A stretch of 33,315 nucleotides of DNA from a virus: positions 1 to 33,315 of the IMG/VR virus record IMGVR_UViG_3300045051_000493, one strand, 5' to 3'. Position numbers and translations under genes: made by a program. Each line of letters starts with the position of its first letter. The first letter of the stretch is position 1. This document shows, piece by piece, positions 7,646-13,981 of this stretch. Under the pieces are notes generated by a model that was not told the origin of the DNA, searched no databases, and saw nothing but the letters and a program-made list of their open reading frames with translations.

Positions 7646-7900
7646 ATGGACAAGATCACAATGGAAGATTGTAGAGCCGTCCTCAAGTACATTGAGGGAG
7701 CGGAGACTGCCAATGCACAGACGCACATGGGGGACATGGCAACCGACCTCAAGATGGACAAGTCAAAGGTGGAGAACATCGTCGATTTGCTGAAGGGATT
7801 TGGTGAAATTTACTGGAGCGACACATTCGCCAGATACCGCAACGTCGAGGACATGACCACAGAAGAACTGAAGGCAATGTTGCGGGGGCTGACGCTGTGA
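7646..7900 (+). CDS. Winged-helix-like small protein
   Basis: 84 aa with a good ribosome binding site (AGGGGGG about 6 bases before the ATG). Helices MEDCRAVLKYIEGAE, MGDMATDLKMDKSKVENIVD and LLKGFGEIYWSDTFARYRN give the helix-HTH-wing order of a small winged helix. The C-terminal helix (TTEELKAMLRGL) may dimerise. Its stop overlaps the next GTG (GTGA, 7897-7900), so the two are co-translated. The next gene also begins with a winged helix, suggesting related or partner proteins. Confidence 0.65.
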   Translation: MDKITMEDCRAVLKYIEGAETANAQTHMGDMATDLKMDKSKVENIVDLLKGFGEIYWSDTFARYRNVEDMTTEELKAMLRGLTL

Positions 7901-9006
7901 ACAGCTTCTACAAGGAACAGATCGAGAAGGTACTGAAGGACGAACGCTGCGCCATGACGATCAATCAGATCGTCCGCAAGACCGGCTTGCCGCAGGGCGA
8001 CATCGGCAAGGCGCTCAATCACCTGGTGGATGAAGGACAGGTCACGGTCTGCGACGGATACTATTCCTGGGACGACGGAACGAAGAGCGAAAAAGCGGAG
8101 TACGTCCCGAACGTCGCGCCGAGCGAGTGCCCCGACGCTACGCCGCCCGTCTCCGGCCTAACGTGTACCGTCTGCGGCAAGGTCTGCGCCAACCCGCAGG
8201 GATTGGGAAGCCACAAGTCCCGCGTCCACGGCAAGACTGCAAAGAAGAAGCCCGAGCACACGCCGCTCGAACACGTCTGCACCGTCTGCGGGGCAGGAAA
8301 CCGGACCGCCGCCGCGCTGGACAAGCACCGCAAAAAGCACCATGAGGGGAATTTCATCTGCCCCGAATGCGGCTTGCACTTCCCCAGCAAGGTCGCGCTG
8401 GCCCCTCATGTCCGCTTCGCTCACAAGGTGAAGCCGACCAACGCCAACGTGACGATACCCGTAGGCGAGGTCCGTATGCCCGAAGGCGCGACGCTGACGG
8501 TGAACGGAGAGGCGAACGTCAAGCCGATCTGCTTCGGCTCGACGTACTGCGGGAACGGAGTGGGATGCTCCGCCCGGGTCGAGTGCACCCAGGCCGTCCT
8601 GGACCTCCAAGAGGCTGCGAAGGCACGCGAGCCGAAGCTCTTTATGGCCGTGGACCCGGAGCCGCCCGCGAGCTACAACGTGCCTCAATTCGCCATCCCC
8701 GCCTGCTTTGGACACTTCCGCGGACTGAGCGACCAAACGTGCCCCGATTGCGCCGTCATGGACTGCTGCGAGAACTACGCCATCGCCCTCCAAATAATGA
8801 AGGAACCGAAGCCAGCCGAACCGGCGCACCCCTACGCCGCCCCGCACCTGATGGACGACCCGCTCGACGCTATCTACGAGATCGTCGCCCGCGCACGCGA
8901 GGCACGGAAAGACGGCTGGACGCTGACGGCGGACATCTCCATCAACATCGACAGCAAGGGCGAATCGACGATGTTCACCCTCTCGATGGACAAGGTGAGC
9001 CCGTGA
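7897..9006 (+). CDS. Winged-helix protein with three C2H2 zinc fingers and Cys clusters
   Basis: 369 aa, GTG start overlapping the previous stop. Residues 1-58 form a winged helix (MTINQIVRKTGLPQGDIGKA). Three C2H2 fingers follow: C90/C93/H106/H111, C128/C131/H144/H148 and C155/C158/H171/H176. Next come a Cys-rich cluster (C212, C218, C224, C230), a second motif CFGHF...CPDC...DCC (about residues 275-300), and a C-terminal acidic helix plus strand. The CFG...CxxC...C motif recurs in the ParB-like protein at 9947. This is a multi-site DNA- or protein-binding factor, perhaps the main early regulator. C2H2 fingers are uncommon in bacterial phages but known in archaeal viruses. Confidence 0.78.
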   Translation: MNSFYKEQIEKVLKDERCAMTINQIVRKTGLPQGDIGKALNHLVDEGQVTVCDGYYSWDDGTKSEKAEYVPNVAPSECPDATPPVSGLTCTVCGKVCANPQGLGSHKSRVHGKTAKKKPEHTPLEHVCTVCGAGNRTAAALDKHRKKHHEGNFICPECGLHFPSKVALAPHVRFAHKVKPTNANVTIPVGEVRMPEGATLTVNGEANVKPICFGSTYCGNGVGCSARVECTQAVLDLQEAAKAREPKLFMAVDPEPPASYNVPQFAIPACFGHFRGLSDQTCPDCAVMDCCENYAIALQIMKEPKPAEPAHPYAAPHLMDDPLDAIYEIVARAREARKDGWTLTADISINIDSKGESTMFTLSMDKVSP

Positions 9007-11696: not shown

Positions 11697-12550
11697 GAGG
11701 CGTCGCCAACCCGAGAAAGGCGACCGACGAGGAGATCGTCGCCGCTTATCAGAAGCACAAGTCCGTCTGGAAGGCCGCCGAAGAGCTAGGCATGTGCGGC
11801 CAGTCCGTCCACGAACGCCTAACTAGGATGGGCGTCACCTTAGACGGCAATGGCAAGAGATGGACCGAGGAGGACGATAAGAAGCTCGCCGAAGAGTACG
11901 AGATGTACCGCTACTTCGGGAAGGTCTCCCAGCTCGCCGCGATCATGGGGCGGACGGTCTTCTTCCTGTCTCGCAAGGCGAAGGGATTAGGGCTCACCAC
12001 ATACGCATCCAAGAGAGCCCCGACCGCGAAGATCAGGAAGATGAGCCCCGACGCCATCCAGCTCATCTGGGAAGACTACAAGGCTTCGTCCTTCAAGATG
12101 TCGGAATACTGCCGCCGTCATGGGTTCGACGATGAGACGTTCGCCAACGTCATGCGCGACACCTACCCCGAATACGACGAGGTCATGGAATCGAAGAAGA
12201 CCAAATGCACCAAGTATTGCAGCGGTCGGACCTTCGAGTACCGGGTCAAGAACTACCTCCAGGCAAAGGGGTTCTTCGTCATGCGTGCGCCTCAGTCGAA
12301 GGGGCCCGCGGACCTGATCGCCTACGACCACGGAAGATGTCTGCTCATCCAGTGTAAGATGGGCGACTGGCACGCGGTAGACGAATGGAACGAGTTCTAT
12401 CGGCTGGCGGTCAAGCACGGAGCGGAACCTATATTCTGCACCAAGGGAGAGAGCGGACGCCTGAAGGTCATGCGGATCACCGGCGAGAAGGACCGCTCGC
12501 GGAAGCCGTGCCCGATGGTCGAGGTCGAAGTCGAGGGGGTGAGGATTTGA
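11693..12550 (+). CDS. HTH domains fused to a Hjc-like Holliday junction resolvase
   Basis: 285 aa from ATG 11693 (ATGA overlap). The N-terminal ~165 residues hold two or three HTH segments: TDEEIVAAYQKHKSVWKAAE, a SANT/Myb-like RWTEEDDKKLAEEYEMY, and a further HTH near 117-155. From residue 178 the archaeal Hjc fold appears: SGRTFEYRVKNYLQAKGFFV, then RAPQSKGPADLIAYD and CLLIQCKMG. Candidate catalytic residues are Glu182, Asp207 and Gln220-x-Lys222, where the usual glutamate is glutamine. Hjc enzymes cut four-way junctions during recombination or before packaging. The HTH fusion may give sequence or structure targeting. Confidence 0.8.
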   Translation: MRGVANPRKATDEEIVAAYQKHKSVWKAAEELGMCGQSVHERLTRMGVTLDGNGKRWTEEDDKKLAEEYEMYRYFGKVSQLAAIMGRTVFFLSRKAKGLGLTTYASKRAPTAKIRKMSPDAIQLIWEDYKASSFKMSEYCRRHGFDDETFANVMRDTYPEYDEVMESKKTKCTKYCSGRTFEYRVKNYLQAKGFFVMRAPQSKGPADLIAYDHGRCLLIQCKMGDWHAVDEWNEFYRLAVKHGAEPIFCTKGESGRLKVMRITGEKDRSRKPCPMVEVEVEGVRI

Positions 12551-12972
12551 GCAGCCCCCTCACCTTCAAACACACTCTGCACGGAAAGGACCGCCACGAC
12601 GCCTACATCTTCCTATGTCAGCGTCTCCTCATACGCAACGGGCACCAGCTCCTCGACGGGCATTGGTTCCTCGATAAGGGGATAATGAGGGGCGAACCCG
12701 ATATTCACGCGAGGCTCATCGACAGACGAAAGGACGACCACGGACGGACGACCGAATGTTACGAAGCGTGCGTGATCGAGTTCGAGTCGAAGCTGACGGA
12801 AGCGAACCGGATCAAGAAGCTCGCGCAGTTCAAGGAATCGGTGAAGGGGATAGAATACTACTTGGTTGAGCTGAACAAGCAACCTGGAGATCCGTGGAAC
12901 ATCCTCGACATGGAGGCGTACCTGAAGACGTGCCTGCCGTTCCTGGCGCGGAAGGGGGGTGAGCGGTATTGA
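12547..12972 (+). CDS. Putative PD-(D/E)XK nuclease
   Basis: 141 aa from TTG 12547, overlapping the previous TGA, with GGTGAG three bases upstream. Motifs fit a compact PD-(D/E)XK nuclease: PD at residues 51-52 in MRGEPDIHARLI, then VIEFESKLT with Glu80-Ser-Lys82, and a following helix (NRIKKLAQFKESVKGIE). It could be a resolvase- or Cas4-like nuclease working with the Hjc protein, or a restriction-type enzyme paired with the methyltransferase that follows; the sequence does not decide. Its stop TGA (12970-12972) overlaps the start of the second frame of the methyltransferase region. Confidence 0.62.
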   Translation: MSSPLTFKHTLHGKDRHDAYIFLCQRLLIRNGHQLLDGHWFLDKGIMRGEPDIHARLIDRRKDDHGRTTECYEACVIEFESKLTEANRIKKLAQFKESVKGIEYYLVELNKQPGDPWNILDMEAYLKTCLPFLARKGGERY

Positions 12973-13981
12973 ACCACTCCGAACCCTCTCCCTCTTCAGC
13001 GGAATCGGAGCCTACGACCTCGGACTCGAATGGGCTGGAGGGTTCGAGACAGTGGGGTTCGTTGAGATCGACCGTAAGTGTCAAAAGACCCTCGCCCTCC
13101 GCTTCCCCGGCGTCCCGATCTACGGAGACATCAAGTCCTTCGACCCTGCACAGATTCCTGGACGGATTGACCTCATACATGGAGGCTTCCCGTGCCAGGA
13201 CATTAGTTCAGCAGGACTTGGCGCTGGCATTGAGGGCGAACGAAGCTCTCTATGGGCTGAGTTCGCGAGATGCATTTGCGTGGCTCGACCGAGCTACGCG
13301 CTCGTGGAGAACGTTTCGTCACTCAACAAACGGGGACTGGACGTTGTTCTCGGGTGCCTGGCCCAAGGCGGGTACGATGCGGAATGGGATTGCATATCGG
13401 CGGCAAGTGTCGGGTGCCTCTGGATGGATGGTGAAGAGGTGCTTACAGGCCATGGCCGAAACCGGCTGTGGACCTGCGCCACTCTTCCGGATACCGCCCG
13501 TGAGCGGGAGTGGCTCGAATGGTTCAGGTCTCGAGGCGGACGGGCCGGCAACTCCCTATCCGATTTCGACCAACGTGAAGATAACAGTGGATATGCTCCC
13601 GACTCCGACAGTTCAGGATGCGAGCGGGAGGAAATACACATTCGACAACGGGGACCACTCAAAGCCGAGACTATCTCTTCCGGGGAGGGTTCAGGTTCTG
13701 ATGTTTCCGACGCCGAAGGTCGGCGGGATGTGCGGCGGGACGGGTTCGTACCAGATGTTGGAATCCTTGAGAGAGCAAGGCTTGCTGACCGACTTGGAAT
13801 GTTCTTCGATGCAAGCTGGGAATGGCGGGAAGCTCAATCCGGAATTCAGCGAGTTACTGATCGGGTTGCCAACCGGGTGGACAGACTGGAACAAATTGGA
13901 AACGCAAATCCGCCGCAGATGGTCGAGTTCCTCGGCACCCTGGTACGAGAGGACGCGGAACGAAGGAGGCGCGTAGCGTGA
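12959..13981 (+). CDS. dcm: C5 cytosine DNA methyltransferase
   Basis: 340 aa, GTG start 11 bases before the previous gene ends. It transfers a methyl group from S-adenosylmethionine to carbon 5 of cytosine in DNA. Visible motifs: I (LFSGIGAYDLGL, residues 12-23), II (EIDR, 36-39), III (GDI, 56-58), IV with catalytic Cys79 (GGFPCQDIS), VI (ENV, 117-119), VIII in altered form (GRNRLW, 166-171, after an unusual insertion), and IX/X (NRVDRLEQIGNANPPQMVEF, 305-324). Viral orphan methyltransferases usually protect DNA from host restriction. Its TGA overlaps the next GTG. Nearly all of it is overlapped by another open frame (12969-13976) with its own family sequence. Confidence 0.9.
   Translation: MSGIEPLRTLSLFSGIGAYDLGLEWAGGFETVGFVEIDRKCQKTLALRFPGVPIYGDIKSFDPAQIPGRIDLIHGGFPCQDISSAGLGAGIEGERSSLWAEFARCICVARPSYALVENVSSLNKRGLDVVLGCLAQGGYDAEWDCISAASVGCLWMDGEEVLTGHGRNRLWTCATLPDTAREREWLEWFRSRGGRAGNSLSDFDQREDNSGYAPDSDSSGCEREEIHIRQRGPLKAETISSGEGSGSDVSDAEGRRDVRRDGFVPDVGILERARLADRLGMFFDASWEWREAQSGIQRVTDRVANRVDRLEQIGNANPPQMVEFLGTLVREDAERRRRVA
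12969..13976 (+). CDS. Overprinted frame within the methyltransferase gene; phage protein family with GLPTGWTDW motif
   Basis: 335 aa in the +1 frame relative to the methyltransferase. TTG 12969 overlaps the upstream nuclease stop and has GGTGAG five bases before it, matching the TTGA starts at 9947 and 12547. The N-terminal ~70 residues are Ser/Pro-rich. Then come ASRART (73-78), FSGAWPKAGTMRNG (127-140), MLPTPTVQD and MFPTPK repeats, and LNPEFSELLIGLPTGWTDW (289-307). Proteins with this series (SGTWP.sG..R.G, LPTPTA.D, LNP.W.EWLMG.P.GWTDL) are common in phages, as I recall them. Each motif here falls on a methyltransferase motif in the other frame, so it is either a true second protein or a long shadow preserved by constraint on the enzyme. 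Confidence 0.45.
   Translation: MNHSEPSPSSAESEPTTSDSNGLEGSRQWGSLRSTVSVKRPSPSASPASRSTETSSPSTLHRFLDGLTSYMEASRARTLVQQDLALALRANEALYGLSSRDAFAWLDRATRSWRTFRHSTNGDWTLFSGAWPKAGTMRNGIAYRRQVSGASGWMVKRCLQAMAETGCGPAPLFRIPPVSGSGSNGSGLEADGPATPYPISTNVKITVDMLPTPTVQDASGRKYTFDNGDHSKPRLSLPGRVQVLMFPTPKVGGMCGGTGSYQMLESLREQGLLTDLECSSMQAGNGGKLNPEFSELLIGLPTGWTDWNKLETQIRRRWSSSSAPWYERTRNEGGA

Follow-up and report, generated by a model that had tools for sequence, protein, structure and literature searches.

Two-polypeptide C5-cytosine methyltransferases have been described before, and they differ in where the enzyme is divided. In M.EcoHK31I (YGGCCR; Lee, Kam and Shaw 1995, via PMC3404938) the larger subunit contains motifs I-VIII and X, and only motif IX lies in the smaller polypeptide (PMC3404938). 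The gene of this small subunit is reported to lie, here too, in another frame inside the large-subunit gene. M.AquI (CYCGRG), also made of two polypeptides, is divided in the variable region (PMC3404938), and its small subunit carries motifs IX and X, as in gp92/gp91 of mycobacteriophage Blue7. In databases, the families phrog_1008 and phrog_31772 bear the label 'DNA methyltransferase', and BLOOM_57 of Paenibacillus phage Bloom is an annotated gene inside BLOOM_56, at +1, each of the two being called DNA cytosine methyltransferase (L320, 2299-3354 and 2501-3205; host Paenibacillus larvae). These are database labels only, in which neither the role of the inner frame nor dual coding is described. 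Most other phage records that we examined annotate only the outer frame.

The window, that is, the whole stretch of 33,315 nucleotides analysed here, is a virus record that also carries terminase, head and tail genes. It holds two overlapping frames, A and B, that divide the methyltransferase motifs in the same way as M.EcoHK31I, and frame B belongs to the two PHROG families named above. That both frames are real genes, with dual coding under purifying selection, is shown at the level of the family, without data on a B protein. Together they most likely make up a single two-subunit C5-cytosine DNA methyltransferase, although the heterodimer and the methylation are inferred and no binding or methylation data support them. 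The locus differs from the described systems in several respects. The predicted TRD of M.EcoHK31I is in the large subunit (PMC3404938), whereas selection places the variable region of our pair in B; M.EcoHK31I is part of a restriction-modification system, whereas our pair looks solitary; and, unlike M.AquI, the window keeps motif X in A. Gp71 of mycobacteriophage Martik (L169) shares the N-terminal half of A and has a B-like C-terminal segment, but has everything in one frame and does not keep +1 open.

The two frames of the locus

The features of the locus are as follows.

12959..13981, + strand: frame A, C5-cytosine methyltransferase, read here as large subunit; GTG start, 340 aa; PF00145, phrog_363
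13181..13207, + strand: motif IV of A, GGFPCQDIS; the same bases read ASRART in B (S-P-A-R/K-T-S in the B family)
13451..13471, + strand: motif VIII of A, GHGRNRLW region with H, R and R kept (alignment, region rates); last A motif before B dominates
13898..13915, + strand: motif X of A, GNANPP (alignment); constrained in frame A (family rates)
12963..13976, + strand: frame B, open from stop to stop, in the +1 frame of A; phrog_1008 at 4.5e-18
13167..13976, + strand: core of frame B, putative small subunit with variable region and motif IX (conservation, selection in relatives)
13167 (TTG) or 13179 (ATG), + strand: candidate starts of B; the upstream TTG codons at 13062 and 12969 are not excluded
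13596..13619, + strand: LPTPTVQD of B, one of the WPTPxA repeats found in the variable region of the family
13833..13889, + strand: motif-IX-like segment of B, LNPEFSELLIGLPTGWTDW (conservation; aligns to the C-terminal half of single-chain enzymes)

Frame A matches phrog_363 (1.7e-59) and PF00145 (6.6e-35), the latter only over profile positions 2-148 of 324, which is the N-terminal half; its relatives of solved structure in the PDB are M.HhaI and M.HaeIII. In the alignment it carries motifs I (FxGxG), IV (PCQ), VI (ENV), VIII (RxR) and X (GNxxPP). Motif IX is not recognisable in A, either in the alignment or in the PF00145 match, which ends at profile position 148, and the criterion for a single-chain enzyme is therefore not met. 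A and B together do meet the criterion for an enzyme of the M.EcoHK31I kind, a large chain with I-VIII and X and a small chain with IX.

As an open reading frame with a TTG start, frame B spans 12969-13976 (335 aa). It matches phrog_1008, labelled DNA methyltransferase, and two smaller PHROG families; no Pfam family was found for it, the B profile had no match among PDB sequences, and a single-protein search of viral contigs returned no close relative. Selection was consequently measured on the family and not on the window copy. The earlier note had claimed both open reading frames, the coincidence of their landmarks base for base, and the likeness of B to a phage protein family, and all three claims held. 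Its list of motifs for A (I, IV, VI and IX/X) held only in part, X being present there and IX being recognisable in B instead.

Directly upstream of A, and overlapping both its neighbours, is an open reading frame at 12385-12972. It found no match in Pfam or PHROG, but shows by eye a PD-(D/E)XK-like pattern (GEPDIHARL ... VIEFESK), and a nuclease partner is possible. Elsewhere in the window we observed a BspA-type leucine-rich repeat protein (40-1311; LRR_5 at 1.2e-67), unusual for a phage, and a phage protein with several C2H2 zinc-finger matches (7897-9003).

Purifying selection on both frames across the family

Gene finders usually discard long overlaps on the same strand of bacterial and phage genomes, and evidence of selection in two frames exists for few of them. 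Here, hundreds of diverged copies make selection measurable region by region, and natural single-chain forms serve as a control. When the codons of A in the window are shuffled synonymously, a +1 frame as open as the real one is obtained with p = 5e-5. Between motif IV and the end, where 5.5 +1 stops would be expected, the window has none, a count that no shuffle reached. Upstream of motif IV, on the contrary, the openness of the window is uninformative (P = 0.74 by the same shuffling). Against an independent B profile the window scores 153 bits, and its shuffles 60 on average and 94 at most. In 81/81 loci the real +1 translation scores higher than every one of its 20 synonymous shuffles. The shuffled A genes still score about 60-80 bits, meaning that the motif codons of A force part of the resemblance to the landmarks of B, but that most of it is not forced. 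Loci chosen through A carry no selection bias toward B; in 57/80 of them the +1 frame exceeds its shuffles in openness (p<=0.005), and +2 behaves as expected by chance.

The distribution of stops over about 248 alignable loci delimits the gene. In the +1 frame, 501 stops are seen against 538 expected between motifs I and IV, 23 against 190 between IV and VI, 1 against 147 between VI and VIII, and 72 against 427 between VIII and X; in the same regions and loci the +2 frame has 935 against 883, 323 against 333, 444 against 452 and 1702 against 1640, with no depletion. This map implies that B begins near motif IV and ends before X. The A frame for its part reaches motif X without a stop in VIII-X in 236/248 loci, with the caveat that the absence of A stops in VIII-X arises partly by construction, A frames having been picked as continuous.

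Substitution rates tell which frame is constrained where. Over 54 independent pairs, the rates at positions 1, 2 and 3 of A codons are.138,.082 and.426 upstream of B, as in ordinary single coding, and.218,.120 and.247 in the overlap. In VIII-X they are.425,.237 and.236, a reversal that makes B the constrained frame, and in motif X they are.046,.026 and.23, with A constrained. A hence dominates in IV-VIII and in X, and B between VIII and X, where A is nearly neutral (.188 for A-changing, B-synonymous changes against.216 for doubly synonymous ones) apart from staying open. Transition rates are.30 for changes synonymous in both frames,.13 for those altering B only,.10 for those altering A only and.048 for those altering both. 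The two criteria for an overlapping pair are met: a second frame open beyond what the first frame and codon usage explain, and purifying selection in both frames.

Of the two outcomes that the earlier note had left open, true dual coding is supported by stops, shuffles and codon-position rates, and a widespread shadow of viral methyltransferases is rejected, even if the worry was partly justified in that about 60-80 bits are forced by the motif codons of A. Frequent stops or neutral change in frame B of relatives, which would have refuted dual coding, were tested for and not seen. The extent claimed, about 1 kb, held only partly, selection on B running from about motif IV to just before X, roughly 0.8 kb.

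The start of B that had been proposed, TTG 12969, is doubtful. The openness upstream of motif IV is unselected in the family (501 stops against 538 expected) and also in the clade of L001, where the N-terminal extension region has 46 stops against 56 expected. We did not count an extension from this TTG as part of B for that reason; it has a better ribosome-binding site than TTG 13167 or ATG 13179, neither of which has a good one, but no family support. The usual ATG of the B family is absent from the window, where these two codons are the nearest candidates, and the exact start can only be inferred. The B core rests on the depletion of stops from motif IV onward in the family and on the score of the window above its shuffles. 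In the family, ATGs just upstream of motif IV number 379 in the B frame against 80 and 19 in the other frames, and 24% of them have a Shine-Dalgarno match against 11% and 5%; in many loci the WPEVPxYDD codons of A spell GAGGTG-N6-ATG. B is thus probably translated from an internal start, an inference that no ribosome profiling or proteomics yet supports.

Frame B and the missing part of the enzyme

The earlier note did not propose that B supplies part of the same enzyme. We think it likely that B carries what A lacks, a variable recognition region and motif IX (LNPxWVEWLMGFPxGWT). The family consensus reads SPAxTS - SWRTxQ - FSxTWPRSGMMRNG - repeated WPTPxA - GxLNPxWVEWLMGFPxGWTDL, and in its motif-IX-like segment P, E, M, G, P, G and T are nearly invariant over 130 B proteins. 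The canonical form of motif IX is RxLTPRECARLxGFPDxW, which this last segment resembles.

One line of evidence comes from enzymes in which both parts are in one chain. Martik gp71 has A-like motifs I-VIII followed by LPTP repeats, PEWMMGWPAGWVT and motif X, and PF00145 spans it nearly end to end (1-317 of 324). The B profile matches single-chain mycobacteriophage methyltransferases in their A frame, and hhalign aligns B with the single-chain alignment over the C-terminal half, the LPTP/IX stretch (97%, E 3e-11). This shows that B and the C-terminal half of the single-chain enzymes are homologous. The end of these enzymes in turn aligns to canonical IX-X (E 0.006); a direct comparison of B with the canonical C5-methyltransferase profile aligns no more than 18 columns, at motif IX, and is not significant (E 0.38), so the link between B and canonical enzymes runs through the single-chain ones. 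L267, from a closely related mycobacteriophage, has nearly the same DNA as Martik as far as motif VIII and resembles it again at IX-X. Indels in between put its TRD-IX-X part in the +1 frame, and the one-chain form and the split form are thus interconvertible. A second split family, from a bacterial genome (L307:1240-3187 / L312), has over A a +1 frame with canonical RRLTVTECCRLQGYPDDW and motif X, where PF00145 positions 270-299 (motif IX) match. In single-chain loci (n=17) +1 is not kept open in IV-VIII, with 37 stops against 42 expected; these loci are mutually related and provide supporting evidence only. The small-domain fold of B is not demonstrated: AlphaFold models of window B (130 sequences; mean pLDDT 61) and of a short B from L218 (89 sequences; 62) are both of low confidence, and Foldseek and VIA-align searches with the former found no fold match in the PDB.

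Since A lacks motif IX, B is homologous to the TRD/IX part, and +1 is not kept open in single-chain forms, A and B most likely form one enzyme. In the model that we favor, A would provide the catalytic domain (AdoMet site in motif I, catalytic Cys in IV, then VI and VIII) and the closing motif X, and B the small domain, with a variable target-recognition region containing PTP repeats and motif IX. B would be made from its own internal start near motif IV and then bind A, taking the place that the small domain occupies between VIII and X of a single-chain enzyme, and the VIII-X stretch of A would serve mainly as an open linker leading to motif X. Phage DNA methylated by the pair would then most likely escape host restriction, which we infer only from its setting as a solitary phage enzyme. 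The model assigns a role to a common family known as 'phage protein of unknown function or methyltransferase'. It predicts that one-gene annotations of these enzymes leave out the half responsible for recognition, and attempts to clone A by itself would be expected to fail often.

A bolder reading, which in our view could equally well prove right or wrong, is that the split forms descend from one single-chain methyltransferase in which the reading frame came to switch after motif VIII and again before X. Each frame would then consist of an old half and a newly overprinted one (B over IV-VIII, A over VIII-X), and the arrangement would have persisted across many bacterial phyla and their phages. 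If this is true, few long overlaps between genes of the same strand would be as widespread in prokaryotes.

Two other explanations accept that B is translated, and both are very unlikely. In the first, ribosomes translating A would undergo a programmed +1 frameshift past motif VIII and make one I-VIII-TRD-IX chain, with no separate B. It is favored by loci in which A stops after VIII while B continues (L163, L193, L267 and Blue7 gp92/gp91), and by the existence of a single-chain version in Martik. However, such a frameshift needs no open B frame over IV-VIII, yet VI-VIII is the region most depleted of stops (1 against 147); its product would not need A to be open to X, as it is in nearly all loci; and the B-frame ATGs upstream of motif IV are frequent and more often accompanied by a Shine-Dalgarno match. 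The second takes B for a genuine protein with a function of its own, such as regulating or inhibiting A or acting against restriction, and regards its overlap with A as incidental. B indeed has neither a Pfam family nor a PDB sequence match, and its part overlapping IV-VIII has no counterpart in single-chain enzymes. But toward its C-terminus it shares homology with the TRD/IX region of single-chain methyltransferases, a region that A is missing, and +1 is not kept open where that region sits in the A frame.

The remaining possibility, a non-coding shadow in which the conserved motif codons of A and GC content keep +1 open and conserved-looking, can draw on the about 60-78 bits that shuffled A genes still score and on an upstream openness that needs no selection, but it is refuted at the family level and all but excluded by stops depleted in +1 and not in +2 exactly from motif IV to before X, by real B frames scoring above every shuffle in every locus, by codon-position rates that reverse in VIII-X, by doubly synonymous changes twice as frequent as A-synonymous, B-changing ones (.30 against.13), and by a B frame still open at 37% GC.

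Distribution of the overlap

Whether the B family always overlaps a methyltransferase had been raised as a check on the earlier note's claim, and the answer is yes for all loci and named-phage records that we examined. A B-profile frame lies at +1 on an A-profile frame in 240/240 collected loci: 80 viral contigs gathered by similarity to B, 80 viral by A and 80 bacterial by B. All three counts are lower bounds (at least 80 each). One locus (L010), for which the automatic pass listed just a weak A match in the B frame, shows, when translated in three frames, the methyltransferase as frame 0 with B overlying it at +1. The constant association is explained if B is, as is most likely, the missing TRD/motif-IX half of the same enzyme. 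The bacterial loci come from Pseudomonadota, Bacillota, Actinomycetota, Verrucomicrobiota, Planctomycetota, Spirochaetota, Bacteroidota, Chloroflexota and other phyla.

Among named phages, tblastn of B gave matches in four genomes, 4/4 at +1 of a C5 methyltransferase. No B without A was found in the viral, bacterial, plasmid or named-phage loci, including records with only hypothetical annotations (L323, L324). In ten genomes, ordinary C5 methyltransferases had neither B nor excess openness, and those of the A type in the same genomes mostly had both. We found no description of such a widespread A/B overlap in the open-access literature searched, subscription papers being outside the search; the overlap is far more widespread than the descriptions found, though its kind is already known.

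In one viral contig (L150:3050-5953) the B frame continues past A as a 967-aa open reading frame, whose downstream part has sub-threshold Pfam matches to Toprim and a DnaB-like helicase, as if B were fused to a primase-helicase.
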